Source: Neomelitea salexigens DSM 19753 (lineage in GTDB: Bacteria; Pseudomonadota; Gammaproteobacteria; Pseudomonadales; Spongiibacteraceae). Taken from it: DNA of 64,000 bases. The position numbers were made by a program, and so were the translations under genes. The stretch is from NCBI RefSeq assembly GCF_000422345.1, contig NZ_AULP01000001.1, positions 558,001 to 622,000 of the forward strand, in the 5' to 3' direction. This document shows, piece after piece, positions 19,808 through 64,000 of this stretch; position 1 is the stretch's first letter; each line of letters begins with the position of its first letter. Under the pieces are notes generated by a model. The model did no database searches. It saw nothing but the letters and a program-made list of their open reading frames with translations, and had not been told where the DNA came from.

Positions 19808-19811
19808 TAAC

Positions 19812-27006: not shown

Positions 27007-27032
27007 TTCACTCTCCTTTTTCTTTGCCAGCC

Positions 27033-27794: not shown

Positions 27795-27870
27795 AAATCC
27801 CCCTAGCTTTTTAATTTCGATAGTAGTCCCCCGCCGAAGCGAACCCGACGACAAAAAACACTATTTTCAT

Positions 27871-49356: not shown

Positions 49357-50559
49357 TTAGAACACTTCAAACAGCGCTGCAGCGCCCATACCACCGCCAA
49401 TACACATGGTCACCACGGCGTATTTTTCACCGCGACGCTTGGCTTCCAGCAAGGCGTGGCCCACCAGACGCGCACCACTCATACCGAAGGGGTGGCCAAT
49501 AGAGATACCGCCGCCATTCACGTTCAATTTGTTGTTGTCGATACCCAACTGGTCGCGGCAGTAAATCACCTGACAGGCGAAGGCTTCGTTCAGCTCCCAG
49601 ATGCCGATATCGTCGACTTTCAAACCCTGACGCTTAAGCAGCTTGGGAATCGCAAACACGGGACCAATGCCCATTTCGTCGGCCTTGCAGCCGGCAACGG
49701 CCATACCGCGGTAAGCGCCCAGAGGTGCCAGGCCCAATTGCTCGGCGCGCTTGGCTTCCATCAATACGCTGGCTGAGGCGCCGTCTGACAACTGCGAGGC
49801 ATTACCGGCAGTAATGAAGCGACCTTCTTTCACCCACTGGCCATCCTTCCAAACCGGCGCCAAGCCTTGCAGGCTTTCCAGAGTGGTGGAGGGACGATTG
49901 CACTCGTCGCGATCCAGAACCACGTCTTTGTAAGTAACTTCTTTGGTTTCTTTGTTAAACACCGACATGCGCGTCGCAAAGGGCACGATCTCGTCTTTAA
50001 ACAGGCCTGCTTCCTGAGCGGCCGCAACACGCATCTGGCTTTGCAGCGCGTATTCATCCTGCGCTTCACGGCTGATGCCGTAGCGCTCGGAAACAATCTC
50101 TGCGGTTTCGATCATCGGGATATACGCCGTTGGATCAATCTCGGTAACGGTTTTCGATACGCTGCGGTAGGTGTTTTTGTGCTTGGTTTGCACCAGCGAA
50201 ATCGACTCCAGGCCACCGGCAACGGCAACGTCCATTTCGTCACACATAATCGACTTAGCGGCCCAGGCAATGGTCATCAGACCAGAGCTGCACTGGCGGT
50301 CGATAGTCATGCCTGCCGTGGTATCAGGCAGGCCCGCAGCAACGCTACACAGGCGGCCCAGGTTGTAGGACTGGCTACCCTGTTGTGCGGCAGCACCCAT
50401 AATCACATCTTCAACTGATGCGGGGTCGATGCCTGCTTTTTCCACCGCTGATTTTACGGCGTGACCACCCATTGCCGGGGCTTCGGTGTCGTTCAGGGCA
50501 CCGCGAAAGGATTTACCCATGCCGGTACGGGCTGTGGAGACGATGACGGCTTCTTTCAT
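49357..50559 (-). CDS. Thiolase (acyl-CoA acetyltransferase)
   Basis: 400 residues. Cys90 in DRQCSSGL, His in [15 protein letters not shown] near 356, Cys386 in CIGGGMGAA. The '[17 protein letters not shown]' loop and [11 protein letters not shown] fit 3-ketoacyl-CoA thiolases of the FadA/FadI-like group rather than FadA6. It is the last gene (downstream end) of the HIP cluster, 92 bases after ipdF, and may cleave the side-chain ketoacyl-CoA or a late ring-cleavage product. Which step it serves cannot be decided from sequence. Confidence 0.85.
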
Positions 50560-50651
50560 GTTGAACCTCGTTCGCTTAGGCGCCGCATGTCCGTGCGACG
50601 CCGGGATTGAATTCTAGTAGCTCTGTGCTGGCTGCAATAGCCTAACGCGCC

Positions 50652-51440
50652 TTAGGCCCGTTGCGAAGAGCAGCTGATGATTTCTCCGGTCAGGTAGCTG
50701 GAATAATCCGACGCCAGGAACATCATGACGTTAGCCACTTCCCACACCTCGGCGCCGCGCCCGAAGGCTTCGCGACCTTCCAGTTCGGCCAGCAATTCTT
50801 CTGGCGCTGATTTCTTCAGCATCGGGTGAACCGCCAGCGACGGCGACACGGCGTTAATGCGCACGCCAAAATCGGCTGCTTCCAGCGCCGCGCAGCGCGT
50901 CAGTGCCATCACACCCGCCTTGGCAGCGGCATAGTGAGACTGCTCTTTTTGCGCGCGCCAGCCCAGTACCGAGGCATTGTTAACGATCACGCCAGCCCCG
51001 CGAGCCTTCATGGTGCGCATCATCTGGCGAGTCATACGCATGGTGCCATTTAGGGTAACGTCGATGACCTTATCCCACTCGGCGTCTTCCATGTCGATCA
51101 ATGACTTGGTGGTGCCAAGACCCGCGTTGTTAATCAGCACATCCACACCACCGCAGAAGTCTTCAGCAAAGGCAATCAGCGCCTGTACGTCGTCTTCGAC
51201 GGCAACATTGCAGACTTTACCAGCGACTTGCTCCAAGCCCGTTTCGCTTTTTAAACGCTCCACGGCGTCGTTCAAACGACCTTCGTGGATGTCGCTGATC
51301 ACGATGCTGCGACAGCCCTCTTCCACGGCGCGCTTAGCCGCCGCAAAGCCAATGCCGGCACCCGCCGCCGCGGTAATCAATACCGACTTGCCCTTGAGCA
51401 GGCCGTGGCCTGCCACGTATTCTGGAATCTTCACACTCAT
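50652..51440 (-). CDS. ipdF: IpdF-like hydroxy-HIP-CoA dehydrogenase (SDR)
   Basis: 262 residues, SDR that oxidises/reduces the 5-hydroxyl of the hydrindane-dione (HIP) CoA intermediate in steroid ring C/D breakdown. Near-identical landmarks to M. tuberculosis Rv3559c: GHGLLKGKSVLITAAAGAGIG, NNAGLGTTKSLIDM, VNNASVLGWRAQKEQSHYAAAK, then RINAVSPS, and the end SSYLTGEIISCSSQRA. The nucleotide loop is the unusual AAAGAGIG. Located between fadE30-like and thiolase genes as in the actinobacterial order fadE30-ipdF. Confidence 0.9.
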   Translation of the reverse strand: MSVKIPEYVAGHGLLKGKSVLITAAAGAGIGFAAAKRAVEEGCRSIVISDIHEGRLNDAVERLKSETGLEQVAGKVCNVAVEDDVQALIAFAEDFCGGVDVLINNAGLGTTKSLIDMEDAEWDKVIDVTLNGTMRMTRQMMRTMKARGAGVIVNNASVLGWRAQKEQSHYAAAKAGVMALTRCAALEAADFGVRINAVSPSLAVHPMLKKSAPEELLAELEGREAFGRGAEVWEVANVMMFLASDYSSYLTGEIISCSSQRA

Positions 51441-51510
51441 TCTATCGCTCCATTGCGCGCCGATCAGCGCAGCGCGTTTTTAACTGTCATTGTGGTTGTT
51501 TGTTACGGCT

Positions 51511-52701
51511 TTACCACTTGGGTTCTTTGGGCATTCCCAAGCCGCGCTCGGCAATAATATTGCGCTGAATCTGGTTGGTGCCGCCGTAAATCGTATCTGA
51601 GCGGGTAAACAGGAATAGCGATTGCAGGCGGTTTAGCTCGTAGGGCGCCTCCGGCAAAATCGTCGCCTCCGGCCCCATAATATCCACCGCCAGCTCACCG
51701 AGGTCGCGGTGCCAGCTCGCCCAGTACAGTTTGTAGATCAGCGCCTCTTTTTGCAGGCTGCCGTCACCCTTGTCGCCAGACAGCATACGCATGCTGTTGT
51801 AGCGCATAATTTTCAAGCCAATGTGAGCCTGGGCAATTCGCTGACGGATCTGAGGGTCGTTAGCCGCGCCGTTTTCACGGGCCAGTTTTACCACCTCGTT
51901 GAGCTCATTTTGGAAGGCCATTTGCTGACCGAGCGTGGATACGCCGCGCTCAAAACCGAGCAAGCCCATCGCCACTTTCCAGCCGTCGCCGGGTTCGCCA
52001 ACAATGTCGTCGGCATCGCACTCGGCGTCGTCAAAAAACACTTCGTTAAACTCTGACGTGCCGGTAATTTGCTCGATGGGGCGCACGGTCACGCCGGGCT
52101 GATCCATTTTTACCAAGAAGAAACCCAGTCCTTTATGCGCCTTTGAGTCAGGGTCGGTGCGGGCGATAACAAAGCAGTATTCCGACTCGTGGGCCAGTGA
52201 GGTCCAGACCTTCTGACCAGTGATTACCCACTTACCTTTTGCCTCGTCAAAGCGCGCCTTGGTTTTTACATTGGCAAGGTCTGAGCCAGCTCCCGGCTCG
52301 GAATAGCCCTGACACCAGAACTCGGTGCCCGCCAGAATACCCGGCAGATACTTGGCTTTTTGTGCCTCGCTACCAAAGGCAATTAGTGTTGGCCCGGTAA
52401 GGCCGTCGCCGATATGACCCATACGACCGGGCGCACCGGCGCGGGCGTATTCTTCATAAAAAATCACTTGCTGCTCGATCGACAAACCACGGCCGCCGTA
52501 TTCCGTTGGCCAACCCACACAGGTCCAACCGCCTTCGGCCAGTTTTTGCTCCCAGCGTTTGCGCTCTTCAGGGAACATATGTTCGTCGCCGGGGCCGCCG
52601 CGAAATTTTAGCTGGGCAAACTCACCGGTAAGATTGTCGGCCAACCAGCCCGCAATCTCTTTGCGGAAGGCTTCGTCTTTTTCGCTGAATTGTAATTTCA
52701 T
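51511..52701 (-). CDS. fadE30: FadE30-like acyl-CoA dehydrogenase
   Basis: 396 residues, acts on the propionyl side chain of HIP-CoA in steroid catabolism. Strong similarity to Rv3560c: WLADNLTGEFAQLKFRGGPGDEH, PTEYGGRGLSIEQQVIFYEEYARAGAP, WCQGYSEPGAGSDLANVKTKA, QITGTSEFNEVFFDDAECDADDIVG, GFERGVSTLGQQ, DTIYGGTNQIQRNIIAERGLG. The MCAD base position is Gly. The next gene upstream encodes a shorter ACAD lacking the C-terminal NIIAER motif, which could be its partner subunit. Flavin-binding motifs are intact. Confidence 0.9.
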   Translation of the reverse strand: MKLQFSEKDEAFRKEIAGWLADNLTGEFAQLKFRGGPGDEHMFPEERKRWEQKLAEGGWTCVGWPTEYGGRGLSIEQQVIFYEEYARAGAPGRMGHIGDGLTGPTLIAFGSEAQKAKYLPGILAGTEFWCQGYSEPGAGSDLANVKTKARFDEAKGKWVITGQKVWTSLAHESEYCFVIARTDPDSKAHKGLGFFLVKMDQPGVTVRPIEQITGTSEFNEVFFDDAECDADDIVGEPGDGWKVAMGLLGFERGVSTLGQQMAFQNELNEVVKLARENGAANDPQIRQRIAQAHIGLKIMRYNSMRMLSGDKGDGSLQKEALIYKLYWASWHRDLGELAVDIMGPEATILPEAPYELNRLQSLFLFTRSDTIYGGTNQIQRNIIAERGLGMPKEPKW

Positions 52702-52786
52702 ACTTGCTCTCGCTTAGCGTATTCGTTGCACACGCAGATCGTCGCGCGATCTATTTGCCTGCCAATGGCTGCTTATTACTTTGGGG

Positions 52787-53938
52787 CTATTCGCCGTCGA
52801 GCAGCAGGGCGGCAATGTTTTCGCGGTGTTGATCGCTGTTACCCAGCAGGTGTTCGCTGGCTTTGGCGCGTTTGAAATACAGGTGAACGTCGTATTCCCA
52901 GGTGAAGCCCACACCGCCGTGCATCTGCATGGCTTCACCAGCATTTTTGAAATACGCCTCGGAGCACCAGGCCTTTGCGATACTGGCAGCTTCGGGAAGT
53001 TCAGCGCTAAGCTCGCCACCGTTGAGGGCTTCGTCGGCAACACAGGCCGCGTAGTAAATGGATGAGCGCGCTACTTCGTTGCGCATCATCATGTCGGCCG
53101 CTTTGTGCTTAATCGACTGGAAGCTAGCAATCGGGCGATTAAACTGCTTGCGCTCTTGGGTGTACTCCACCGCTGAAGACAGCAGTTGCTGCATGCCGCC
53201 CGCTTGCTCTGCTGCCAGCGCAACAGTGGCCAGTTGCAGGGTTTTATTCAGTGCATCGGCAGCATCGCCTGACTCACACGCCAGCTTGGCACCGGCAGGC
53301 ACGCGCAGGTCTTTGAGCTGAATGGCTGCTTGGCGACGAGTCTGGTCCATGGTCGGTAGTGCTTGGCGTTCAATGCCGGCCGCTGCGGCATCCACAGCGA
53401 ATAACTGCACCGCATCGCTACCCGCTTCTTTAGCTGCAAGAATCAGCAATTCGGCACTGGCGCCGTCGATAACATAGCGATAGTCACCGCTTAACAGGTA
53501 ATCGTCGCCGTCCTTGCGCGCGCTGGCGCTTACAGAGGCGGCCGTCCAGCCGCCAGTGTTGCTCCACGCCAGCGTGGCGGTTTTGCCTTCGCAAATCGCG
53601 CCCAGGTACTCGGCTTTTTGCTCTTCGGAACCCGCGCAAAGCAGCGCATTGGTGGCCAGGCACACGGTTGAAAAATACGGCGCACACAGCAGGTAGCGCC
53701 CCATTTGTTCAACAATGGCGATCAGCTCGATATAGGAAAGCCCGAGACCACCGTAGGCCTCGGGAATATGAATGGCTTGCCAGTACATCTCACCACACAG
53801 GCGCTGCCATAACTCGGCATCGTAACCCAGCTCGGACACCATTGCGGTGCGCACCGCTTCGCTGGTGGATGTATCTTTAAGAAAGGCCTCCGCCGTATCG
53901 CGGATCATTTGCTGTTCGTCAGTAAACGCAAAATCCAT
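52787..53938 (-). CDS. Acyl-CoA dehydrogenase, partner-type subunit
   Basis: 383 residues. N-terminal MDFAFTDEQQMIRDTAEAFL and PEAYGGLGLSYIELIAIVEQMG, the central EYTQERKQFNRPIASFQSIKHKAADM and MQMHGGVGFTWEYDVHLYFKRAK are normal ACAD, but the C-terminal YGGTNEIQRNIIAER element is absent. This is the pattern of the non-canonical subunit in heteromeric alpha2beta2 steroid ACADs (as in ChsE/FadE pairs). It lies 85 bases upstream of the FadE30-like gene. Closest to FadE33/FadE32-like proteins by appearance; exact assignment open. Confidence 0.8.
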   Translation of the reverse strand: MDFAFTDEQQMIRDTAEAFLKDTSTSEAVRTAMVSELGYDAELWQRLCGEMYWQAIHIPEAYGGLGLSYIELIAIVEQMGRYLLCAPYFSTVCLATNALLCAGSEEQKAEYLGAICEGKTATLAWSNTGGWTAASVSASARKDGDDYLLSGDYRYVIDGASAELLILAAKEAGSDAVQLFAVDAAAAGIERQALPTMDQTRRQAAIQLKDLRVPAGAKLACESGDAADALNKTLQLATVALAAEQAGGMQQLLSSAVEYTQERKQFNRPIASFQSIKHKAADMMMRNEVARSSIYYAACVADEALNGGELSAELPEAASIAKAWCSEAYFKNAGEAMQMHGGVGFTWEYDVHLYFKRAKASEHLLGNSDQHRENIAALLLDGE

Positions 53939-53972
53939 ACAGACTCCAGTTCACGACGGAGACCCCGTGACC

Positions 53973-54512
53973 TTACAGCCGCAGCTGCAAGCGCACAAAG
54001 GGACCGTCTTCAAAGTCGAATTCACCGCCCTTCTCGGCGTCGAATTCGATGTCACCAAAACCCACTTGAATAGCGGAGTTTTGAAAGATTGATATTTCAG
54101 CGCTAAGCGACCATTCGCTGTAGCCGTCCACGTCGCTAAAGCCAGTGGCTTCAGGGCCGTAGTAAATACCACCGCGCAAACGTAGTACGTCGTTCAGTGG
54201 CAGGCTCAGATCACCGCCAAAGGCCATAACGCCGCCATCGAAACCGCTGTCGTCAGCCGTTAGCGTCACGGCTTTGGCACCCACGCGACCCGTTAAGGCG
54301 CCGCGACGGCCGTTGGCATACAAACCGGCAGACAGCAGGTCTGCGTCGTCTTCATGGTGCAGCCAGTCGAATTGCGCACTGGTTTCCGGGCCGATGTCGC
54401 CGGCGATCGACGCCCCAAAGCTTTCGTCGCCAAAGCGGAAGGCAACGCCTCCCGCCATAGCGCTATGCGCAGTGGTGGCAAGCAGTACGGCAGCGAGTAG
54501 CGGTGATTTCAT
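53973..54512 (-). CDS. YfaZ-family outer-membrane protein
   Basis: 179 residues. Signal peptide KSPLLAAVLLATTAHSAMA, then GGVAFRFGDESFGASIAGDIGPETSAQFDWLHHEDDADLLSAGLYANGRRGALTGRVGAKAV, glycine-rich beta strands and a terminal RLQLRL. This fits the YfaZ-like small porin family. It is placed in the same direction inside the HIP cluster, 34 bases before the next ACAD gene and about 35 bases after the SDR, so it is likely co-transcribed. A role in passage of a steroid-derived acid is possible but only by context. Confidence 0.8.
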   Translation of the reverse strand: MKSPLLAAVLLATTAHSAMAGGVAFRFGDESFGASIAGDIGPETSAQFDWLHHEDDADLLSAGLYANGRRGALTGRVGAKAVTLTADDSGFDGGVMAFGGDLSLPLNDVLRLRGGIYYGPEATGFSDVDGYSEWSLSAEISIFQNSAIQVGFGDIEFDAEKGGEFDFEDGPFVRLQLRL

Positions 54513-54547
54513 GGTGTTGATTCTCCGTGGATTGGTGTCCTAGAAAA

Positions 54548-55432
54548 TCAGCTACCATACACTTTCTGCGCGGGAACTGCCTCTGCCAATAGCTTCTCGA
54601 CAGCTTGACCAACTTCCGCTGGTGCCCAGCGATCGCCTTTATCGACCTCGGGGCCTTTGCGCCAGCCATCGGCAATGGAAATTTTGCCGCCCTCGGCTTC
54701 AAATACTTTGCCACTCACTGAGGCTGCTTCCGCGCTCGCCAACCACACCAACAATGACGACACGTTTTCCGGTGCCCAATAGTCAAAGCTGCCATCTTCC
54801 GGCTTGGCCATACGCTGCGCCATGGATTCGACAGCGGTTGTCATGCCCGTACGGGCCGCTGGTGCAATCGCATTGGCGGTAATGCCGTAGCGCGCCAGCT
54901 CGGCGGCCTGGTTAAGGGTAAGCGCCGCAATACCGGCTTTCGCCGCTGCGTAGTTCGACTGACCGACAGAGCCTTGCAGGCCAGCGCCGGAGGTCGTGTT
55001 GATAATGCGTGCGTCCACCGCCTTGCCCTCTTTGGACTGACCGCGCCAGTAGTGAACCGCATGGGAGGTGATGCAGAAATGTCCTTTCAGGTGAACCGCC
55101 ATAATGGCGTCCCAATCGGCTTCGGTCATTGAGGCGAACATGCGGTCGCGGTTAATACCCGCGTTGTTCAGCACCACATGCAGGTCGCCAAAGGTATCAA
55201 TGGCCTGTTTCACCGCATTAAGGCTATCGTCGTAGTTAGTGATGTCCGAGGTGTTAACAATCGCGGTGCCGCCAGCGGCCTTGATCTCATCAACCACTTT
55301 TTGCGCAGCGTCTTGATTAATATCGTTAACGATTACCTTGGCGCCTTCACTGGCAAATACCTTGGCGTGTGCCGCGCCCAAACCACCACCGGCACCGGTG
55401 ATAATCACTACACGATCCTGACAAATACCCAT
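54548..55432 (-). CDS. SDR of the Rv3548c type (steroid ring C/D cluster)
   Basis: 294 residues. MGICQDRVVIITGAGGGLGAAHAKVFASEGAKVIVND, RDRMFASMTEADWDAIMAVHLKGHF, HYWRGQSKEGKAVDARIINTTSGAGLQGSVGQSNYAAAK and NAIAPAARTGMT, then a C-terminal extension FEAEGGKISIADGW..GPEVDKGDRW, all as in M. tuberculosis Rv3548c and resembling the dehydrogenase part of peroxisomal MFE-2. Probably the 3-hydroxyacyl-CoA dehydrogenase of the HIP side chain or ring product. A GCGCCG/CGGCGC hairpin lies in its leader. Confidence 0.85.
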   Translation of the reverse strand: MGICQDRVVIITGAGGGLGAAHAKVFASEGAKVIVNDINQDAAQKVVDEIKAAGGTAIVNTSDITNYDDSLNAVKQAIDTFGDLHVVLNNAGINRDRMFASMTEADWDAIMAVHLKGHFCITSHAVHYWRGQSKEGKAVDARIINTTSGAGLQGSVGQSNYAAAKAGIAALTLNQAAELARYGITANAIAPAARTGMTTAVESMAQRMAKPEDGSFDYWAPENVSSLLVWLASAEAASVSGKVFEAEGGKISIADGWRKGPEVDKGDRWAPAEVGQAVEKLLAEAVPAQKVYGS

Positions 55433-55458
55433 TGCAGATCCTCTCTTGTTTCTTCTCT

Positions 55459-55476
55459 GCGCCGATCACACGGCGC
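55459..55476. promoter_or_regulatory. GC-rich inverted repeat in leader of SDR gene
   Basis: GCGCCG (55459-55464), ATCACA, CGGCGC (55471-55476), about 27 bases upstream of the SDR start within the 196-base gap after fadA6. No T-run on the minus strand; possible leader hairpin or protein site. Nothing else is recognised in the gap. Confidence 0.3.
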
Positions 55477-55628
55477 GATTAAATTTGAATATCCACCGCT
55501 ACTGAGAGCGTCAGCTGCGTGTGGCTGGCAAGGCGCCGAGACGTTTTAAGTCGGGAGTTTACAAAGCCGTAAATGACCCTCTTAAAAAGGCTTGGCAACG
55601 CCGCCAGCCGCTTGCAGATGGCGTTCCG

Positions 55629-56777
55629 CTATAGACGCTCGATGATGGTGACATTCGCCTGGCCACCACCCTCACACATAGTCTGCAAACCATAGCGACC
55701 GCCACTGCGCTCCAGCTCATGCAACAGCGTTGTCATCAATTTGGTGCCAGTTGCCCCCAGAGGATGACCCAGTGCAATCGCGCCACCGCTGACATTGGTT
55801 TTCGCGTGGTCGTAGCCGGTTTCCTTAAGCCACGCCATTGCCACCGAGGCAAAGGCCTCGTTTATTTCCACACGGTCGATATCCGCCATCGTCATACCGG
55901 CTTTTTTCAAGGCGTATTCAGTGGCAGGAATCGGCGCGGTAAGCATCCAGATAGGGTCGGCCGCACGGACACTCATGTGATGAATACGGGCGCGCGGCGT
56001 GAGGTTGTAACGCTTAAGCGCATCTTCACTCACGATCAACATCGCGCTTGAGGCATCACAGGTTTGGCTGGAGACCGCAGCGGTCACTTTGTCGCAGCCA
56101 AACAGGTAATCGAGCTCGGCCATTTTTTCCAGGGTCGACTGACGCGGGGTTTCGTCGGTGGTGACGCCAGCCAAAGGAACAATCTCGCGATCGAAACGCC
56201 CCTCTTCAATGGCCTGCAATGCACGGCGGTGAGACTCAAGTGCAAATTCCTCTAGATCGCGGCGCGACAGTTCCCATTTGTCGGCAATCATTTGCGCCGA
56301 CTTAAACTGTGTAGGCGGCTCTGCACCGTAGCGCTCAACCCAGCCTTCTGAACCAGAGAACGGGTCTTTAAAACCCATTGGCTCTGCAGCAATCATTGCC
56401 GACGAAATGGGGATCTGGGTCATGGTTTGCACGCCGCCAGCAATCACCACATCTTGCGTGCCAGACATTACCGCCTGCGCGGCGAAGTGCACCGCCTGCT
56501 GTGAGGAGCCACATTGGCGGTCGATAGTCGTACCCGGCACCTCTTGCGACAGACCCGCTGCCAGCCAAGCCGTGCGCGCGATGTCACCAGCCAAGGGACC
56601 AATCGTATCGACGCAACCGAAGATCACATCGTCGTATTCGTTATCGGGAATGCCGTTGCGCTCAACAATGGCTTTGAGCACGTGAGCGCCGAGGTCGGCG
56701 CCGTGAACGTGAGCCAAGCCACCCTTGCGACGCCCGGTGGGGCTTCTCACTGCATCGACAATATAGGCTTCTGCCAT
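55629..56777 (-). CDS. fadA6: FadA6-like thiolase
   Basis: 382 residues. Thiolase for the open-chain CoA ester formed after C-ring hydrolysis in steroid catabolism. Very like Rv3556c: DDVIFGCVDTIGPLAGDIARTAWLAAG, TTIDRQCGSSQQAVHFAAQAVMSGTQDVVIAGGVQ (Cys89), QIPISSAMI, SLEKMAELDYL, ARIHHMSVRAADPIWMLTAPIPATEYALKKAG, GGAIALGHPLGATG (His) and LQTMCEGGGQANVTIIERL (Cys368). Length and motifs are complete. The neighbouring fadE and SDR genes match the same pathway. Confidence 0.92.
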   Translation of the reverse strand: MAEAYIVDAVRSPTGRRKGGLAHVHGADLGAHVLKAIVERNGIPDNEYDDVIFGCVDTIGPLAGDIARTAWLAAGLSQEVPGTTIDRQCGSSQQAVHFAAQAVMSGTQDVVIAGGVQTMTQIPISSAMIAAEPMGFKDPFSGSEGWVERYGAEPPTQFKSAQMIADKWELSRRDLEEFALESHRRALQAIEEGRFDREIVPLAGVTTDETPRQSTLEKMAELDYLFGCDKVTAAVSSQTCDASSAMLIVSEDALKRYNLTPRARIHHMSVRAADPIWMLTAPIPATEYALKKAGMTMADIDRVEINEAFASVAMAWLKETGYDHAKTNVSGGAIALGHPLGATGTKLMTTLLHELERSGGRYGLQTMCEGGGQANVTIIERL

Positions 56778-56821
56778 GATAGTTTCCTCTTATTGCCCGC
56801 TCGGCAGGCGATACCCGTCAA

Positions 56822-57871
56822 TTAAAAAGTTGCGCCAGCACCAAGTGCGGCGTTATCGGCCAGTAATACGGCGGCCACGCGATTTTTGTGGAAGCCCGCC
56901 GTGCCATAACTACTGTTTAACGCCCAGGCGCGCTTCATAAAGATGTGCAGGTCCACTTCCCAGGTGTAACCCATCGCACCGTGAACCTGGATGCTGTTTT
57001 TCGCCGCCAGGTCGGCCACTTCACAGGCGGCCAGTTTGGCGTGGCTCACCGACAAGTCTGCGCGCGGCGTGTCGTTGGCAATGTCATAGGCGGCGCGATA
57101 AACCGGCGTTTTGGCGTATTCCAGTTTGTAGGCGATATTCGCCATGTGGTGCTTAACGGCCTGAAAGCTGCCAATGGCCACACCGAACTGCTTGCGCTCG
57201 CTGGTGTATCGCACCGACAGATCAATCATTCGTTGAGCCAGACCCAGCGACTGCGCTGCCACGCCCAGTGCGCCACGATTCAGCGCTTTGTTGATCAACG
57301 CCTGGGCGGCACCGCCTTCGGCCAGACAAACCGCCGCCGCGGGGTCGAAGTCCACAGCAAACAATTTGCGACCGGGGTCGACAGATTCATTGGCGCGCAG
57401 GCTGGCATTGGCGGCCTCTACCGCATAGATCGCGCCGCCTTTTTCGAGCAACAGCAAATCCGCGCAGTGAGCGTCTTCCACCAACTTGTTTACCGCCAGA
57501 CCCACCACGGCACGCGCCTCACCCGAGGCAATTTTTGGCAACCACTGCTCTGCAATCGCGCTATTACCACATTCACTCAACAGCGGCGTTGCCACTAGCA
57601 CGCTATTCACCAACGGCTCAGACAGGGCGACGTAACCGGCTTCCTGAGCCAGCAGGACGAAGTCCAGTTCGTTCATGCCCAGTCCGCCGAAGTCTTCGGG
57701 AACAGTCAGTCCGGTCAGGCCCATTTCGGCCAGTTGCTGCCATAACTCATCGCTGCGACCGCTGTCGGTTTCCCACAGCTGACGGATTTTGTCAGGGGTA
57801 ATTTCATTCACCAGAAAGTCGCGCACTGATTCCTGAAACAAGAGCTGATCTTCGCTAAAGGTAAAGTCCAT
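56822..57871 (-). CDS. FadE32-like acyl-CoA dehydrogenase subunit
   Basis: 349 residues from the ATG at 57871, which has AAGGAGAC directly upstream; the frame continues to 57970 inside the preceding gene. Typical ACAD with MDFTFSEDQLLFQESVRDFL, PEDFGGLGMNELDFVLLAQEAG, RYTSERKQFGVAIGSFQAVKHHMANI, VHGAMGYTWEVDLHIFMKRAW, but without the C-terminal NIIAER motif and with a shortened middle domain. It follows the FadE31-like gene by 10 bases, so the two likely form one heteromeric enzyme. Assignment to FadE32 rests on context and appearance. Confidence 0.78.
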   Translation of the reverse strand: MDFTFSEDQLLFQESVRDFLVNEITPDKIRQLWETDSGRSDELWQQLAEMGLTGLTVPEDFGGLGMNELDFVLLAQEAGYVALSEPLVNSVLVATPLLSECGNSAIAEQWLPKIASGEARAVVGLAVNKLVEDAHCADLLLLEKGGAIYAVEAANASLRANESVDPGRKLFAVDFDPAAAVCLAEGGAAQALINKALNRGALGVAAQSLGLAQRMIDLSVRYTSERKQFGVAIGSFQAVKHHMANIAYKLEYAKTPVYRAAYDIANDTPRADLSVSHAKLAACEVADLAAKNSIQVHGAMGYTWEVDLHIFMKRAWALNSSYGTAGFHKNRVAAVLLADNAALGAGATF

Positions 57872-57881
57872 GTCAGTCTCC

Positions 57882-59054
57882 TTATTTGCGCGGCATGCCG
57901 AGCATACGCTCTGCGATGATGTTGCGTTGAATCTCGTTGGTGCCGGCGTAAATCGGTCCGGACTGGGCAAACAGCCAACCGTCTAACCAGCGGCCAACGT
58001 CACCGGCATCGGGCGACTCGGGCAGCAGCTCGCCGCGTGTTTCAAGAATCTTCAGCGCGGTGGCGTGCATTTGCTGGTCGAGCTCAGACCAGAAAATTTT
58101 ATTGGTCGAGGCCTCGGCACCGATTTTTCCACCCTGCATTAGACGGCAGGCCGTTTGGTAGGTGGTCAGGCAGTAAGCCTCGGCATCCATATAAGCACGC
58201 AGTACCGCTTCGCGAATGCTGGGGTCTTCGTCGGCCGTTTCTTGGTTAGCTTTGTAGAGCTCCACCAAGCGTTTGGCCGTTTCCTGGAAACGCGCCGGTG
58301 AGCGCAGCATCAAACCGCGCTCAAAACCCGCGGTGGCCATCGCCACACTCCAGCCCTCACCTTCACCGCCAAGGCGGCAGTCGACAGGTACTTTGACATT
58401 GTCGAAGAAGATTTCAGCAAAGCCGGGCAAGCCATCCAACTGAGGAATAGGACGAACGGTAATGCCTTCGCTGTCTAACGGCACCAGAATAAAGGTCAGG
58501 CCGCGATGGCGCTCTGACTCGGGGTCGGTACGGAACATACCAAAACACCAATCGGCCCATACCGCGCGGGTCGACCAGGTCTTTTGACCGTTGATAATGT
58601 AGTGGCTACCGTCTTCGCTAAGGTCTGCTCGCGAGCGGATGGCGGCCATATCAGAACCGGCATTCGGCTCAGACCAACCCTGACACCAAATATCCTTGCC
58701 GGTGGCCATACCATTGAGGAAGCGCTTTTTCTGCTCTTCGGTGCCGTATTCCATCAAAGTGGGGCCAAGCAGGAAGATGCCGTTTTGGTTTACCCGCAGT
58801 GGTGCAGACGCCGCGTAGTACTCTTCTTCAAAGATCAACCACTGCAATAGGTCGGCGCCACGGCCACCCATTTCTTCCGGCCAGGTGATCATTCCCCAGC
58901 GGCCTTCGTACAATTTGGCCTCCCACTCGCGGTGCTGCTGGAAGCCTTCTTCGGTGTCGAAGGACTTCAAGGGCTCGGCGGGAACATTGGCCTTTAACCA
59001 GCTGCGAACTTCTTCGCGAAAGGCTTGGTGCTCTGCGGTGTATTCGAGTTTCAT
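57882..59054 (-). CDS. fadE31: FadE31-like acyl-CoA dehydrogenase
   Basis: 390 residues. Follows Rv3562 (FadE31) closely: EVRSWLKANVPAEPLKSFDTEEGFQQHREWEAKLY, ITWPEEMGGRGADLLQWLIFEEEYYAASAP, WCQGWSEPNAGSDMAAIRSRA, PQLDGLPGFAEIFFDNVKVP, GFERGLMLRSPARF, SGPIYAGTNEIQRNIIAERMLG. The MCAD base position is Ala (YAGT). FadE31-33 are required late in ring C/D breakdown; exact substrate not settled. Lies between echA20 (46 bases) and the FadE32-like gene. Confidence 0.88.
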   Translation of the reverse strand: MKLEYTAEHQAFREEVRSWLKANVPAEPLKSFDTEEGFQQHREWEAKLYEGRWGMITWPEEMGGRGADLLQWLIFEEEYYAASAPLRVNQNGIFLLGPTLMEYGTEEQKKRFLNGMATGKDIWCQGWSEPNAGSDMAAIRSRADLSEDGSHYIINGQKTWSTRAVWADWCFGMFRTDPESERHRGLTFILVPLDSEGITVRPIPQLDGLPGFAEIFFDNVKVPVDCRLGGEGEGWSVAMATAGFERGLMLRSPARFQETAKRLVELYKANQETADEDPSIREAVLRAYMDAEAYCLTTYQTACRLMQGGKIGAEASTNKIFWSELDQQMHATALKILETRGELLPESPDAGDVGRWLDGWLFAQSGPIYAGTNEIQRNIIAERMLGMPRK

Positions 59055-59100
59055 GGGTGATTCTCGTCTCGGTTCAGCAGCGGGCGTTGCCCGCCGTTAA

Positions 59101-59856
59101 TCAAAATTTGGCGTCGCGCTTTTCAACAAAGGCGTCTTTGGCTTCCTGCGAGTCTGGCTCTGCATAGGCCTCTTGCGTAAAGCCCTGCTCCCAGCGGTAT
59201 TTGTCTTCCAGGTTGCCGTCTTCCACACCGTTGAGCGCTTCCTTGGCCAGCTCGATCATACGCGGTGATTTTTCGGCAATTTTGTCGGCAATATCGCGGG
59301 CAGTTGCCATCAGTTGATCGCGGGGAACCACCTTTTCAATGGCGCCCAGACGATAGGCCTCTTGCGCATCGATGGCCTCGCCGGTGAAGTACATGTAGCG
59401 CACTTTCTGCACCGGGAACATGCGCTGCAAGTGAGCGCCGCCGCCCATTGCACCGCGGTCAACTTCGGGTACGGCAAAGGTCGCACACTCCGATGCCACA
59501 ATAATGTCGGCCGCACCACTGATGCCGATGCCACCACCGAGCACGAAGCCATGCAGCGCGACAATGACTGGCTTGCGGCAGCGGTGAATGGCTTTGAAGG
59601 TGTCGTAATTACCCTTGTTAACGCGGGTGATCATGGCGGGGTTTGCCGCCAATTCTTTGATATCAACACCGGCGCAAAAGCCGCGACCCTCGGCAGCGAT
59701 AATCACCACGCGCACCGCGTCGTTGTCGCTCAGGGCATTGATCTCGGCAGCGATGGCCAGCCAGCCGTCACTGTTAAAGGCGTTGACCGGTGGCTTGTTG
59801 AAAATTAGTTCAGCAACACCGCTGTCGCTGATGCTCAGGGTATATGGCTTACTCAT
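59101..59856 (-). CDS. echA20: EchA20-like ring D hydrolase (crotonase family)
   Basis: 251 residues. Crotonase-fold hydrolase; EchA20 opens ring D of the HIEC-CoA intermediate. Oxyanion motifs VIIAAEGRGFCAGVDIKELA near 51-70 and LHGFVLGGGIGISGAADIIVASECATF near 100-126, EVDRGAMGGGAHLQRM, and VVPRDQL are shared with Rv3550. Its start codon overlaps the stop of ipdC (TAATG), so the two are translationally coupled. A generic enoyl-CoA hydratase is the alternative, but the gene order argues for EchA20. Confidence 0.88.
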   Translation of the reverse strand: MSKPYTLSISDSGVAELIFNKPPVNAFNSDGWLAIAAEINALSDNDAVRVVIIAAEGRGFCAGVDIKELAANPAMITRVNKGNYDTFKAIHRCRKPVIVALHGFVLGGGIGISGAADIIVASECATFAVPEVDRGAMGGGAHLQRMFPVQKVRYMYFTGEAIDAQEAYRLGAIEKVVPRDQLMATARDIADKIAEKSPRMIELAKEALNGVEDGNLEDKYRWEQGFTQEAYAEPDSQEAKDAFVEKRDAKF

Positions 59857-60923
59857 TATGCGTTCCCCATTTTTGCGAAGCGCGATTCGGCTTCGTCGAC
59901 AATGCTGCGAATCAGGTCTTCACAACTCAGTAATTCATCGATAACACCTGCCACCTGGCCAGAGGGCAACACGCCTTCGTCCGGGCGGCCATCGACCATG
60001 GCTTTTTGAATAATCATCGGTGCATTCGCCGCCATAATGGCCTGCGACTTAGTGATGTCGCCGCTGCTGGTCATGGCGAGTGCAGAGCGCAGCAGGGAGG
60101 TCAGGCTGGCACCAGTGAACTTGCGAAAGGCCAGGCCATTGCGCAAGGCGATAATCAGTTTTTTCAGTGGCCCGGCTTTCTCCAGCTCGCCGAGGAAGTC
60201 GTTCAAAATCATGCGCTGTGGCAGGCCGTCGAGGGCTTCACTGCGAATGATGGCACCGGGGTCTTTGCAGGCGAGGTAGCGCTGCTTGGTCGCCTCGGGA
60301 ACAGGGCTTTCTTTGGTCAGCAAGAAACGCGTTCCCATAGCGATGCCGTCAGCCCCATAGGCCAGTGCCGCCAGCAAACCGCGACCATCTTTAAAGCCGC
60401 CCGCCCCCAGTACCGGCACTTTGTCGCCCACGGCGTCCACTACTTGTGGCAGTAACAGGGTGGTGGGAATCGCACCAGTGTGGCCGCCACCCTCGCCGCC
60501 TTGAACGGCAACCGCATCGGCGCCCATCTCTACCGCCTTGATGGCGTGCTTGGGCAAGCCCACGGTTGGCATGCAGACCACGCCAGCCTCTTTCAGGCGA
60601 GCAACCATCTCTTTACCTGGCGAGCGCGAGTAGCTCACCGCCTTAACGCCGTGTTTGATCACCAGATCGATAATCTCGGCAGCGTTGGGCTGATACATGT
60701 GAAAGTTCACACCGAAGTTCGCATCGGTGAGCGACTTCACTTCCAGAATATTGGCTTCCATTTGCTCGGGCGGAATGGTTGCCCCGGCCAGAAAACCGAA
60801 GCCACCGGCATTGCCAGTGGCAGCGACCAGTTTCGGGTCGGCAACCCAGCCCATAGCGGTTTGGATAATGGGGTATTTACAGCCCAGTAATTCGGTAATG
60901 CGGGTATCGAGTAGCGTCGACAT
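59856..60923 (-). CDS. ipdC: IpdC-like FMN oxidoreductase (nitronate monooxygenase fold)
   Basis: 355 residues, FMN TIM-barrel of the 2-nitropropane dioxygenase family: YPIIQTAMGWVADPKLVAATGNAGGFGFLAG, NFGVNFHMYQPNA, AVAVQGGEGGGHTG, VPVLGAGGFKDGRGLLAALAYGADGIAMGTRFLLTKESP. IpdC (Rv3553) acts on the HIP-CoA-derived ring to give the unsaturated HIEC-CoA. Position directly between ipdB and echA20 equals the actinobacterial order. A strong intercistronic hairpin lies between it and ipdB. Confidence 0.9.
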   Translation of the reverse strand: MSTLLDTRITELLGCKYPIIQTAMGWVADPKLVAATGNAGGFGFLAGATIPPEQMEANILEVKSLTDANFGVNFHMYQPNAAEIIDLVIKHGVKAVSYSRSPGKEMVARLKEAGVVCMPTVGLPKHAIKAVEMGADAVAVQGGEGGGHTGAIPTTLLLPQVVDAVGDKVPVLGAGGFKDGRGLLAALAYGADGIAMGTRFLLTKESPVPEATKQRYLACKDPGAIIRSEALDGLPQRMILNDFLGELEKAGPLKKLIIALRNGLAFRKFTGASLTSLLRSALAMTSSGDITKSQAIMAANAPMIIQKAMVDGRPDEGVLPSGQVAGVIDELLSCEDLIRSIVDEAESRFAKMGNA

Positions 60924-60951
60924 AAATAATTAGCTCTGCGTGGAATCGACA

Positions 60952-60982
60952 AAGCACCGACCTGCTTTACAGGCCGGTGCTT
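60952..60982. repeat. Intercistronic hairpin between ipdB and ipdC
   Basis: AAGCACCGaCCTG (60952-60964) pairs with CAGGcCGGTGCTT (60970-60982), one mismatch, five-base loop. On the minus strand only three T follow, so complete termination is unlikely; it may protect the ipdAB mRNA end or adjust expression of downstream genes. Confidence 0.55.
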
Positions 60983-60998
60983 GTTGCGCCTGGCCGTA

Positions 60999-61802
60999 TT
61001 AGCCGCGAACGCCCGGAGGGTTATCCTTCAGCTGCTTGGCGCGCAGGTTGTGCGGGTCAATGCGGCGGATAATGTCCAGCTGCTCTTCTGTGGGAGCCTG
61101 CGTTGTTGGAATAGACTCGGGAACATGCACCGGGAAGCCGGTATTCTCCTGAACCTCTTCCACGGTCACACCGGGGTGAAGGCTAACGATTTGCATTTGG
61201 CGATTGGGACCGCGGAAGTCGAACACACCCAAGTTGGTGTAGACCTGACGCACATCGATCTCGTCGAAGCTGTAACCTTTAGGCAGACGATCCGGGTTGT
61301 AGCCAATAGTGCACACCACGTCGCACTCGCCTTCTACAAACACGCGCTTGCTGTGCATGGGCACCAGGTAGCTGTTGGCATGACAAATCGAGTTACCGGG
61401 GAAACCACGCACACCCAACATTTGCACCTTGGGCTTGCTGTGATCGCCACCCAGCGCTGAGATGTTGGCTTGCGCGAAACGGTCAATTTGCGTCGGACCA
61501 CCGGTCAGGTGACGGCGGCCGCTCCACACGTTGTCAAAAATGCGGGTAAAGCCCATCCAGGTTTCCGCCTTCGGCTGGAAGTCGGCGTCGCGCTTGCCTA
61601 CAGGGTTGGGCTCTGACAATAACCACGCTTCGGAGTCGGTCATCATGATGTCGGTATTGCTGCTCAGCATGGCGAGACTGGCGGCAATGCGCGGCAGCAC
61701 ACCGATACCGGTGACCAGGACTTCGCCGTCATTGTCATAAGCGCTGGCGTTGGCACAAATCATCAGCTCGGCCAGGCTGTATTCTGTTGCAGGGGTAGTC
61801 AT
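60999..61802 (-). CDS. ipdB: IpdB, beta subunit of COCHEA-CoA hydrolase
   Basis: 267 residues, CoA-transferase family I beta-like fold: YSLAELMICANASAYDNDGEVLVTGIGVLPRIAASLAMLSSNTDIMMTDSEAWLLSEPNPVG, GGPTQIDRFAQANISALGGDHSKPKVQMLGVRGFPGNSICHAN. With IpdA it hydrolyses ring C of COCHEA-CoA in steroid breakdown instead of transferring CoA. The family Glu of true CoA transferases (in an EN-G type motif) is not seen. 21 bases downstream of ipdA. Confidence 0.92.
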   Translation of the reverse strand: MTTPATEYSLAELMICANASAYDNDGEVLVTGIGVLPRIAASLAMLSSNTDIMMTDSEAWLLSEPNPVGKRDADFQPKAETWMGFTRIFDNVWSGRRHLTGGPTQIDRFAQANISALGGDHSKPKVQMLGVRGFPGNSICHANSYLVPMHSKRVFVEGECDVVCTIGYNPDRLPKGYSFDEIDVRQVYTNLGVFDFRGPNRQMQIVSLHPGVTVEEVQENTGFPVHVPESIPTTQAPTEEQLDIIRRIDPHNLRAKQLKDNPPGVRG

Positions 61803-61823
61803 AACTAGAATTCCTCAGACCGA

Positions 61824-62699
61824 TCAGTAAACAGGCAGCGGCAGTTGACGGATGGCGTCGATACCACCCACAGCTTGCTGGTATTCCGCTTCACTGCGAC
61901 CCTTGATGTATTTGTCGAAGTAGGCTTCAAAGCCGCCCTCTTTCGCCGAGGCGTTGTACTCCTGGAAGTGCGGCACATCGAAGCCGTATTCAGGCGTGCA
62001 TGACGTTGGGTGAGCACCGCCGGCAACCGGAATAACCGCCGAGGTCATAGTGCGCTCCCAGAAGACGTAACGCGCTTCGTCCCCCTGAGCAAAATATTCG
62101 GTGTCGACCAGCTCTTCACAGCTAACGAAGGTCTTGTCAGCTGCGCGCGCCATCCACTCGTCCATATACACATCGGGGCCTTTGATCTGGCAAACGCCAC
62201 GACGGTCCGCGCGGTCAACATGCAATAGCGCCGCATCGAGTTTCAGTGCGGGCATTGCCAGCCACTCTTTCTCATCGTAGGGGCTGTCGACCAGTTTGAT
62301 GTCTGGGTTGAGGTTAACAACATCGGTTCCCAGGCCGAGGCGAGTGGGAATATAAGGACAGCCCCACGCTGCCGCGCGCAGGCCCAACAACAGCATACCC
62401 TCGTCAATTTCCATCACCTCGATCTCGCCATTTTGACGAGCCTTGCGGAAATAGGGCTCCAGCGGAATAAAGTCCAGCGACACGAAGGCGAACACCACTT
62501 TTTTCACCTTACCGGCAGCACACAACATGCCGACATCTGCACCGCCATAGGCCACGATAGTCAGGTCTTTTAAGTCAGACTTGAGAATCTCGCGAATCAG
62601 CGCCATTGGCTTACGACGCGGCCCCCAGCCGCCAATACCGATGGTCATGCCATCGCGTAGCTCGCCAACGAGCTCCTGCAAAGCCATTTCTTTATTCAC
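61824..62699 (-). CDS. ipdA: IpdA, alpha subunit of COCHEA-CoA hydrolase
   Basis: 291 residues from the GTG at 62699, 5 bases after AAGGAG; the GTG at 62705 lies inside that ribosome site. DGMTIGIGGWGPRRKPMALIREIL, TIVAYGGADVGMLCAAGKVKKVVFAFVSLD, EIDEGMLLLGLRAA (with the Glu reported to matter for ring hydrolysis in this family), PTRLGLGTDV, LDAALLHVDRADRRG. First gene of the operon after the AsnC pair, with a 130-base upstream region likely to contain the promoter. Works as a heterotetramer with IpdB. Confidence 0.92.
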   Translation of the reverse strand: MNKEMALQELVGELRDGMTIGIGGWGPRRKPMALIREILKSDLKDLTIVAYGGADVGMLCAAGKVKKVVFAFVSLDFIPLEPYFRKARQNGEIEVMEIDEGMLLLGLRAAAWGCPYIPTRLGLGTDVVNLNPDIKLVDSPYDEKEWLAMPALKLDAALLHVDRADRRGVCQIKGPDVYMDEWMARAADKTFVSCEELVDTEYFAQGDEARYVFWERTMTSAVIPVAGGAHPTSCTPEYGFDVPHFQEYNASAKEGGFEAYFDKYIKGRSEAEYQQAVGGIDAIRQLPLPVY

Positions 62700-62836
62700 G
62701 TCCACTCCTTAATACAAAGCGAGGTTTGCCGCTTGAGACAATCCGTCATACGCAGCTCTACTACGCATAACATTAGAAATTACAGCTTACCAATGAAAAA
62801 AACCTAAGCCATAAGCCAAATAGATTACGCAAAAAC

Positions 62837-63328
62837 TTATTCGGACCCATTATCTAGCTCTGGACCGACGATCCGGCTCATGCGGTAATCATGCTTGACA
62901 AAATTAACCCCCAACGAGCATTCGGTGCGCAGCACACCGGGCAGGCCACTGATACGTCGGTGCAAGAACGCCGCAAGCTCTGCATGGTTTTGCACCAGCG
63001 TAATGGCGAGCAAGTCAAAGCGGCCCAGCATTTTGCCGACAAAACCGATTTCCGGCACCGCTGCCAGCTGCTTGGCCAGCTCGTCGCACTGTGCACTGCG
63101 CTCTACTTCCACCCAAATGTAAGCCAGTATGGGGTTTCGCAGCCGCGCGATATTGGTCATTGCGGTGATACGCACCAAGCCTTCGGCTTCCATGCGTTTG
63201 ATACGCGAGCGCACTGTCCCCTCGGTAATCCCAAGCTCCGCAGCAATTTTGCGGTTGCTAGTGCGGGCGTCGTGGGCCAGGCCGTCGAGAATTTTCAGAT
63301 CGAGCTCATCTAGCTGTTTCTTCTGCAT
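62837..63328 (-). CDS. Lrp/AsnC-family regulator 2
   Basis: 163 residues. Winged helix DELDLKILDGLAHDARTSNRKIAAELGITEGTVRSRIKRMEAEGLVRI (about 6-54), then RAM ligand-binding domain (about 70-150) with AYIWVEVERSAQCDELAKQLAAVPEIGFVGKMLGRFDLLAITLVQNHAELAAFLHRRISGLPGV. It follows regulator 1 by 3 bases and lies upstream of ipdA, hence it may sense a CoA-ester or acid intermediate and control the HIP operon. In actinobacteria this role belongs to the TetR protein KstR2. Confidence 0.9.
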   Translation of the reverse strand: MQKKQLDELDLKILDGLAHDARTSNRKIAAELGITEGTVRSRIKRMEAEGLVRITAMTNIARLRNPILAYIWVEVERSAQCDELAKQLAAVPEIGFVGKMLGRFDLLAITLVQNHAELAAFLHRRISGLPGVLRTECSLGVNFVKHDYRMSRIVGPELDNGSE

Positions 63329-63331
63329 GAC

Positions 63332-63844
63332 CTAGTCCGCCTGCCCGAAGGGCACCCAATTTGACTGATTTTTGAGAACGTCCAGCGCGACGGATGGCTC
63401 CAACTTTCTCACACCGGGCACGGCAGCCAACTGGCTAAGCAGCTTGTTGAGGTCTTCCTGATCACGCGCCACCGCCAGCGCTTCAATATCCAACGTGCCA
63501 ACCACCTGGCACACGGAGAAAACCTGGGCAAAACCCGCCAAATCTTCTGCGACCTCATCGGCGGCGCGGCCTTCCACCTGAATACCGACCGCCAGCATCA
63601 TGCTGTAGCCCACCGCTTCGTAGTCGGTAACAGCAACTACCCGCAGGCTGTCGGCCTCCTCCATGCGACGCACCCGCGAGCGCACAGTGGCTTCGGTTAG
63701 ACCGAGATCCGCAGCAATGGCTTTGTAGGGCATGCGCCCGTCGCGGCGCAGCAAGGCAACAATGCGAAAGTCCACCTCGTCCATGCCTTGGTTGGACTCA
63801 TCCCCCGCTAGCGGCGGGATGGCACCATCGCTGCCAATATTCAC
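63332..63844 (-). CDS. Lrp/AsnC-family regulator 1
   Basis: 170 residues with GTG start overlapping the stop of the CoA-ligase gene (GTGA). Helix-turn-helix DEVDFRIVALLRRDGRMPYKAIAADLGLTEATVRSRVRRMEEADSLRV (about 20-68) and a RAM domain with MLAVGIQVEGRAADEVAEDLAGFAQVFSVCQVVGTLDIEALAVARDQEDLNKLLSQLAAVPGVRKLE. Clearly paralogous to the next gene, suggesting a heteromeric or antagonistic pair. Confidence 0.9.
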   Translation of the reverse strand: MNIGSDGAIPPLAGDESNQGMDEVDFRIVALLRRDGRMPYKAIAADLGLTEATVRSRVRRMEEADSLRVVAVTDYEAVGYSMMLAVGIQVEGRAADEVAEDLAGFAQVFSVCQVVGTLDIEALAVARDQEDLNKLLSQLAAVPGVRKLEPSVALDVLKNQSNWVPFGQAD

Positions 63845-64000
63845 GCCTGGGCCTCAATATGCTGGGCGGCCTGCGCAGCCAGTTCCGTTTTCAACACCTT
63901 GCCCGAGGCGTTCATTGGCAGCGCATCGACGAATGCCACGTAGTAAGGAAGTTTGTAGCGCGCCAATTGCTCAGCACAGAAGGCTTTTACCTGTTCAGCC
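63841..64000 (-). CDS. CoA ligase C-terminus, probably FadD3-like (cut by window)
   Basis: About 52 C-terminal residues visible: the end of an AMP-forming ligase with LARYKLPYYVAFVDALPMNASGKVLKTEL, where the Lys of GKVLK is the catalytic lysine of adenylation. In the HIP clusters FadD3 activates HIP to HIP-CoA and is placed next to fadE30/ipd genes, so this is the natural guess; the sequence alone proves only an acyl-CoA synthetase. Its stop overlaps the start of the first AsnC regulator. Confidence 0.75.
   Translation of the reverse strand, partial: AEQVKAFCAEQLARYKLPYYVAFVDALPMNASGKVLKTELAAQAAQHIEAQA

Follow-up and report, generated by a model that had tools for sequence, protein, structure and literature searches.

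A tandem Lrp/AsnC pair and a conserved inverted repeat proposed to control the ring C/D steroid catabolic cluster of Neomelitea salexigens

We analysed a stretch of 64,000 nucleotides, hereafter the window, from Neomelitea salexigens DSM 19753, a gammaproteobacterium of the family Spongiibacteraceae (NZ_AULP01000001.1, positions 558,001 to 622,000; C1:558001-622000 of genome G000, which has 3.44 Mb and is 99.99% complete). Its right end carries, entirely on the minus strand, the genes for degrading HIP, the propionate-bearing hydrindane-dione derived from steroids (rings C and D), together with two tandem genes for Lrp/AsnC-type regulators. The cluster spans from a thiolase gene at 49357 to the second regulator gene, which ends at 63844, and the adjoining fadD3-type ligase gene runs past the window edge to C1:623523. 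On the sequence evidence, this is probably the HIP module of a complete aerobic 9,10-seco pathway, for which we propose control by the tandem Lrp pair at a conserved DNA site.

The two regulators, Lrp2 and Lrp1, are encoded between fadD3 and ipdA, a place at which a preliminary description of this DNA, made from the sequence alone, had passed them over. Both carry an AsnC-type helix-turn-helix and an Lrp/AsnC ligand-binding domain, all above the Pfam cut-offs (Table 1), and their recognition-helix segments are nearly alike. They were the only regulators among the scanned proteins from 49357 to fadD3, in which no TetR-family (KstR2-type) repressor was found. Within a set of 21 Spongiibacteraceae genomes (the window's own included), IpdB was present in 18 and orthologs of Lrp1 and Lrp2 in 17 each. 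Each regulator occurred in 17/18 IpdB-positive versus 0/3 IpdB-negative genomes (Fisher P 0.003), the only IpdB-positive genome lacking the pair being that of S. thalassae (G019). Across loci from a wider range of genomes, lrp2-lrp1 stood directly before ipdA, with fadD3 before them, in 25 of the 72 loci that had ipdA and at least 900 bases upstream when strict distance limits were applied; with relaxed distances, the pair was found in 28 of 84 loci, counting that of the window. The stretches of these 28 loci (at most ~10 kb on each side) were devoid of ring A/B genes, and hsaC lay directly before ipdA in 27 of the 45 pair-less loci with enough upstream DNA. In one Halieaceae metagenome-assembled genome (L100), Lrp2 and Lrp1 form a single reading frame joined by an Ala/Ser/Gly/Thr-rich linker, a fusion that, coming from a single such assembly, may be an assembly error. 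A test of Lrp1 and Lrp2 monophyly gave no clade output, perhaps owing to this fused frame.

Aligning the fadD3 upstream regions revealed an inverted repeat, ATKCGTA-N18-TACGMAT, which in N. salexigens lies upstream of fadD3 at C1:623559-623590 (called fadD3 start, C1:623523). Its core, CGTA-N18-TACG, was present in 25 of the 27 fadD3 upstream regions of pair-bearing loci, while every other spacing from 8 to 29 reached at most 2 of the 27 and dinucleotide shuffles gave a mean of 0.11 and a maximum of 2. The two regions missed had a spacing of 19 by eye (L097) and a variant scoring 19.8 (L095). The strict form KCGTA-N18-TACGM separated 25/28 pair-bearing from 0/53 pair-less loci. Conservation was concentrated in the arms (1.67 and 1.61 bits, against 0.57 in the spacer and 0.44-0.51 in the flanks; 24 sites, that of Spongiibacter marinus L058 being dropped as a near-copy of the window). 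A weight matrix with a threshold of 8 located the site in 26/28 pair-bearing and 3/56 loci called pair-less; it missed L097 and L120, the latter without a fadD3 upstream region. The three pair-less loci with a site were all from Zhongshania, and for two of them the pair is encoded at another place in the source genome (G009 and G012). Over the 50 pair-less loci that remained after leaving out these three and three plasmid loci (852 kb), the highest matrix score was 7.9. As an aside, one locus has a second strong, nearly identical copy of the operator (L127:2923-2956) ~1 kb before the operator copy at fadD3.

Since most of the 26 sites had trained the matrix, held-out tests weigh more. A matrix built from 21 sites in loci not labelled Spongiibacteraceae recovered the fadD3 site, at scores of 17.5-28.5, in 11/11 family stretches that contain both fadD3 and the pair; the pair-less S. 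thalassae stretch (L062) peaked at -5.0. In a scan extended to complete assemblies, 17/17 pair-bearing family genomes had a site of no more than one mismatch 1.6-1.9 kb before lrp2; this distance corresponds to a place before fadD3, which was checked directly in the stretches of the held-out test. The four pair-less family genomes showed no perfect match in the whole-genome scan, and their one-mismatch places (5 in G015, 0 in G017, 2 in G018 and 3 in G019) were at the level of a reversed control, those of G019 lying on a contig other than that of its HIP cluster. Of the 16 perfect places across the family, 12 preceded fadD3, ipdA or a unit encoding a TonB receptor and a FAD dehydrogenase, and 4 lay elsewhere.

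The position of the repeat relative to predicted promoter boxes was also conserved. At 18 of 24 sites, the right arm was followed after exactly 7 bp by a TTG/TTT -35 box and, 17 bp further on, by a -10 box (shuffles: mean 0.035, maximum 1), and the corresponding offset from right arm to -35 box in N. salexigens is 6 bp. Such a location directly upstream of the -35 box suggests activation in gammaproteobacteria. A generic promoter scan upstream of fadD3 found nothing. In N. salexigens, the called fadD3 start and the predicted -10 box are only a few bases apart and, therefore, translation may begin at an ATG further downstream.

Further sites point to additional members of the putative regulon. 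The held-out matrix detected a separate ipdA site (22.2-23.5) in 8/8 Zhongshania-type stretches in which ipdA is separated from the pair (these represent 5 or 6 genomes); at the place equivalent to that before the window's ipdA, scores were 20.6-24 in Zhongshania-type relatives and G014, and 11.4 in G020. G004 and G007 have another perfect site, flanked by the genes for a trans-2-enoyl-CoA reductase and a TonB receptor, and a second perfect site in G010 is flanked by those for such a reductase and a FAD dehydrogenase. The equivalent place scored 13.2 in S. marinus and 15.6 in G020 with the held-out matrix, and 17.2 in N. salexigens with a matrix to which the strain's own fadD3 site had contributed. 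Two wider extensions were tried and dropped. Extra genome-wide sites at two mismatches (22 and 26 places in N. salexigens) were not above the reversed-pattern control (33 and 30), and a regulon reaching the strain's own ring A/B clusters was unsupported, as no site above a score of 8 was found in 357 kb of own-genome stretches that included the window and the kshA/hsaC stretches of contig C3.

The site also appeared outside the gammaproteobacteria. Among six sphingomonad HIP clusters examined, located on plasmids (that of S. herbicidovorans was picked through its Lrp match), five had the site between hsaA and hsaC-ipdAB, namely those of S. herbicidovorans, TomTYG46, TomTYG65, TomMM15 and Novosphingobium PP1Y. 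Scores were 17.8-23.5, each the best of its 26-34 kb stretch, and in three of the five both Lrp genes were nearby, their products being 38-44% identical to those of the window. Owing to close kinship among some of the plasmids, the number of independent cases is below five. In sphingomonads the left arm is directly adjoined by a TTGACA box, so that the site would overlap the promoter, an arrangement suggesting repression there. No site was found at two sphingomonad Lrp pairs located in other clusters (L260 and L262) or in the steroid clusters of Vibrio (L148) and Caballeronia (L150).

Several observations weigh against control by the pair at this repeat. On a tree of IpdA and EchA20, the presence of the pair changed only ~5 times over 75 loci, so the locus counts are inflated by relatedness. 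S. thalassae has the cluster with neither pair nor site, and thus the pair is not indispensable; tandem Lrp pairs are found in non-steroid clusters too. The looser pattern CGTA-N18-TACG occurred in 4/53 pair-less loci as well as in 26/28 pair-bearing ones, and the promoter boxes departed from the exact geometry at 6 of 24 sites. Family-wide totals at up to one mismatch (69 and 74) were little above those of the reversed control (62 and 58), and therefore it is position, not number, that carries the argument. In N. salexigens itself, the site before ipdA is degenerate (matrix score 3.1), and that upstream of the TonB receptor has two mismatches, a class no commoner than its control, so the latter rests on its position and its conservation in relatives. 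Among the sphingomonads, two clusters have the site without a full pair close to it: TomMM15, with a single nearby Lrp gene of the Lrp2 type, and Novosphingobium PP1Y, with no pair within 32 kb. The sixth cluster, ES2-1 (L149), lacks both the site and an adjacent pair.

Of the other explanations, the one that survives best, although we consider it unlikely, is that the HIP cluster is an ordinary one, that the Lrp pair controls another target, such as the alanine dehydrogenase gene by fadD3, and that a different factor binds the repeat. An alanine dehydrogenase gene does precede fadD3 in this genome, Lrp/AsnC proteins classically sense amino acids and Lrp pairs are present in other catabolic clusters. 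However, alanine dehydrogenase was detected in only 4 of 84 loci, compared to 28 of 84 for the pair. In addition, S. thalassae lacks the site along with the pair, and three steroid clusters of alphaproteobacteria possess the two together.

The assignment of the enzymes to HIP degradation, put forward in the preliminary description, was confirmed at the sequence level. Open reading frames on a single strand were found for every gene it had named, although its list lacked a fourth acyl-CoA dehydrogenase, a second thiolase and a YfaZ-type outer-membrane protein encoded inside the operon. The best solved relatives of IpdA and IpdB are the IpdAB structures 6co6/6con, and curated NCBIfam cut-offs were passed in the echA20, fadA6, ipdF and Rv3548c slots and by FadD3. 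The names of the PRK models are silent on echA20 and ipdF, whose identities rest on gene order. By order too, the four acyl-CoA dehydrogenases were assigned as two large/small pairs (FadE31/32 and FadE30/33), the IpdE2 cut-off of 450 bits being unreached and the one-to-one FadE names resting on order. The order ipdA-ipdB-ipdC-echA20-fadE31-fadE32-fadA6-Rv3548c-fadE33-fadE30-ipdF matches the locus-number order of Comamonas testosteroni CNB-2 and S. denitrificans given in Table 1 of PMC5380842. It is common in many gammaproteobacterial loci, and its agreement with known HIP clusters is, judged from the sequences, far beyond chance. The enzymes are ordinary and add one more genome to the documented list. 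The closest named relative found was S. marinus DSM 17750 (L058), with an EchA20 99% identical. Of 83 other loci, 6 had a detected YfaZ-type protein, and each of these bore the label Spongiibacter, Zhongshania or Spongiibacteraceae.

A cluster serving a non-steroid hydrindane or terpenoid substrate is very improbable. Beta-oxidation-type families are promiscuous, which would leave room for it, but the gene order is exactly that of known HIP clusters and a ring A/B gene set lies in the same genome. In addition, Halieaceae BC5_1 (L137) has the same cluster, including fadD3-lrp2-lrp1; it is apparently the sponge isolate BC51, an identity taken from the name, which the relevant passages of PMC5790920 report to grow on cholesterol.

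The preliminary description had seen no ring A/B enzymes in the window and supposed that they lay elsewhere or that the strain fed on the HIP of others. The first supposition was right, as a genome search for KstD and HsaA-D type genes, already suggested at that stage, found homologues of KstD, HsaA, HsaC and HsaD on contig C3. The absence from the window holds for true KshA, HsaA, HsaC and HsaD, but two divergent KshA_C-type Rieske oxygenases are encoded there (18800-19834 and 25134-26231). PF19298, the KshA C-terminal domain, had 7 matches in the genome, the strongest three on C3. One of them (C3:120089-121153) has a 3-ketosteroid 9alpha-hydroxylase as best solved relative (E 1.4e-95) and is followed by HsaC (2zi8, E 8.3e-66) and HsaA (3afe, E 5.4e-82), with HsaE/G/F-type genes at C3:113740-116546. 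A second KshA-HsaC-HsaA set lies at C3:149148-152320, a third KshA is encoded at C3:261320-263691 together with a protein that matched the HsaD model best (250 bits against a cut-off of 400), and KstD is encoded at C3:38194-39906 (3-oxosteroid 1-dehydrogenase 7p18, E 1.3e-153). The HsaA, HsaC and HsaD models all matched below their curated cut-offs in this genome, and the HsaC model did so (cut-off 450 bits) in all 21 family genomes. Judged by homology, the 9,10-seco pathway is complete in outline and spread over more than one contig. That the strain is a HIP scavenger without ring A/B degradation of its own, as the lack of true KshA/HsaC in the window and the location of C/D and A/B genes on different contigs might suggest, is hardly credible, being contradicted and made unnecessary by the KshA, HsaA, HsaC, HsaD, HsaE/F/G-type and KstD homologues, and we rejected it once these turned up in the same genome.

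The range of steroids used may be limited. An enoyl-CoA hydratase gene between ipdB and ipdC, probably echA13, was found in 25/44 pair-less versus 0/27 pair-bearing loci, and a further 8 pair-less loci had a long ipdB-ipdC gap in which no hydratase was detected. In the window this gap is 75 bases and the slot is empty. As echA13 is contained in the clusters of cholate/bile-acid degraders according to passages of PMC5380842, complete cholate use seems less likely here than the use of C12-unsubstituted steroids, a judgement made on this slot and not on a genome-wide search for echA13. The capability itself is not new, since passages of PMC5790920 (Holert 2018) describe Spongiibacteraceae and Halieaceae as degrading steroids and mention isolates that grew on cholesterol; OM60 and SAR86 gammaproteobacteria are listed in PMC4810484, in the part concerned.

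Table 1. Genes and site of the HIP cluster in the window, with the evidence for each assignment
Feature	Position	Strand	Evidence
fadD3-type HIP-CoA ligase, 3' end	63841..64000	-	whole gene C1:621841-623523; NCBIfam FadD3 family 690 bits, cut-off 657
Lrp2, Lrp/AsnC-type regulator	63332..63844	-	Pfam HTH_AsnC-type 58.4 bits (cut-off 27), AsnC_trans_reg 45.1 bits (cut-off 25); overlaps fadD3 stop codon
Lrp1, Lrp/AsnC-type regulator	62837..63328	-	Pfam HTH_AsnC-type 55.9 bits (cut-off 27), AsnC_trans_reg 49.3 bits (cut-off 25); 3 bp after Lrp2
Degenerate operator-like site before ipdA	62800..62833	.	matrix score 3.1; TGCGTA half-sites at 62749, 62762 and 62826
ipdA, COCHEA-CoA hydrolase alpha subunit	61824..62705	-	PDB 6co6_A, E 2.2e-70
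ipdB, COCHEA-CoA hydrolase beta subunit	60999..61802	-	PDB 6con_B, E 1.3e-54
ipdC, FabK-like 5-OH HIC-CoA reductase	59856..60923	-	FabK model 225 bits, below cut-off 453; named by order
echA20, HIEC-CoA hydrolase (crotonase family)	59101..59856	-	PRK07938 370 bits, above cut-off 260; gene order
fadE31-position acyl-CoA dehydrogenase (large type)	57882..59054	-	model scan; gene order
fadE32-position acyl-CoA dehydrogenase (small type)	56822..57970	-	IpdE2 model 152 bits, below cut-off 450; gene order
fadA6 thiolase	55629..56777	-	PRK07801 704 bits, above cut-off 591; gene order
Rv3548c-position short-chain dehydrogenase	54548..55432	-	PRK07791 439 bits, above cut-off 373; gene order
YfaZ-type outer-membrane protein, inserted in operon	53973..54512	-	Pfam YfaZ 78.5 bits, cut-off 23
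fadE33-position acyl-CoA dehydrogenase (small type)	52787..53938	-	best model IpdE2 196 bits, below cut-off 450; gene order
fadE30-position acyl-CoA dehydrogenase (large type)	51511..52701	-	model scan; gene order
ipdF short-chain dehydrogenase	50652..51440	-	PRK07831 438 bits, above cut-off 336; gene order
Second thiolase (acetyl-CoA C-acyltransferase), last cluster gene	49357..50559	-	PRK07108 558 bits, below cut-off 615; linked in relatives

Other observations concern related genes in this and other genomes. Second IpdB-like copies, 60-64% identical, are present at G002:C14:8704-9450, G003:C105:18803-19531 and G008:C26:4545-5297, two of the three with internal stop codons. On a plasmid of the fish-gut Vibrio alfacsensis (L148, NZ_CP140104.1), ipdAB, ipdC and echA20-type genes accompany an HsaC-like gene of the VOC family, and more acyl-CoA dehydrogenase genes are close by. 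A metagenome-assembled genome labelled Klebsiella pneumoniae (L101, CAMAXE010000024.1) contains a Halieaceae-type fadD3-lrp2-lrp1-ipd cluster, and the label is probably wrong. The window also has a second oxidoreductase cluster on the minus strand (12398-27854) with two OYE-type enzymes (one BaiCD-like), several short-chain dehydrogenases, an amidohydrolase, the two KshA_C-type Rieske oxygenases and a TonB receptor, which may act on steroids or other polycyclic substrates. Overall, the 3.4 Mb genome encodes, on C1, C2, C3, C9 and other contigs, seven KshA_C-domain proteins and ~12 P450s, and it has two HsaC genes.

In the proposed scheme, FadD3 would form HIP-CoA, and the acyl-CoA dehydrogenases, IpdF, IpdC, EchA20, IpdAB and FadA6 would open rings C and D and shorten the resulting molecule, a chemistry worked out in PMC5380842 (in its passages on HIP) and applied here by homology and gene order. 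Control would be exerted by the two Lrp/AsnC proteins encoded between fadD3 and ipdA, which, as homo- or heteromers, would bind both arms of ATKCGTA-N18-TACGMAT, spaced 22 bp centre to centre or about two helical turns. From the predicted operator just upstream of the -35 box they would activate fadD3-lrp2-lrp1, and like sites before the detached ipdA and the TonB receptor/FAD-dehydrogenase unit would bring these into one regulon. HIP-CoA is proposed as the ligand because it is the effector of KstR2, as stated in PMC5380842 in the passage concerned, and the Lrp pair may be regarded as a functional counterpart of KstR2. The broadest form of this proposal is favoured only slightly over its negation: that the tandem (once fused) pair binds the repeat and is a proteobacterial KstR2 counterpart sensing HIP-CoA or a neighbouring metabolite, with ring C/D genes as its targets in Halieaceae, the same plus a TonB receptor in Spongiibacteraceae, and genes for rings A/B as well as C/D in sphingomonads, where it may repress. 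A regulator pair with a defined DNA site in two proteobacterial classes makes the open question of regulation testable, the TonB receptor becomes a candidate steroid uptake gene, and the operator and pair could mark steroid regulons in marine metagenomes.

With known HIP clusters the window shares ipdA, ipdB, ipdC, echA20, the fadE30-33 positions, fadA6, ipdF, the Rv3548c-type short-chain dehydrogenase and fadD3. It differs from them in having a tandem Lrp/AsnC pair instead of a KstR2 (TetR) gene, a YfaZ-type protein inside the cluster, no enoyl-CoA hydratase between ipdB and ipdC, and ring C/D genes apart from those for rings A/B. According to passages of PMC8399759, bile-acid-degrading Proteobacteria lack homologues of KstR and KstR2, and regulation in them is largely unknown. 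The AsnC passages of PMC6498646 and PMC6429209 describe no such tandem pair. Two contiguous Lrp/AsnC genes also lie inside the steroid catabolic cluster of Sphingobium sp. Chol11 (bile-salt cluster; PMC12882949), a likeness drawn from the description in that paper, whose relevant passages discuss them in terms of amino-acid metabolism, with no operator or link to HIP. The sponge degraders of Holert 2018 belong to the same families as the genome of the window, Halieaceae and Spongiibacteraceae; the steroid-degradation passages of PMC5790920 do not discuss regulators or operator sites, unlike the present analysis, and L137, apparently their isolate BC51, has the fadD3-lrp2-lrp1-ipd order of the window. 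The regulators of steroid catabolism named in the pertinent part of PMC6678751, TesR/TeiR of Comamonas (LuxR-type) and KstR/KstR2 of actinobacteria (TetR-type), are of families other than Lrp/AsnC, to which the pair proposed here belongs.

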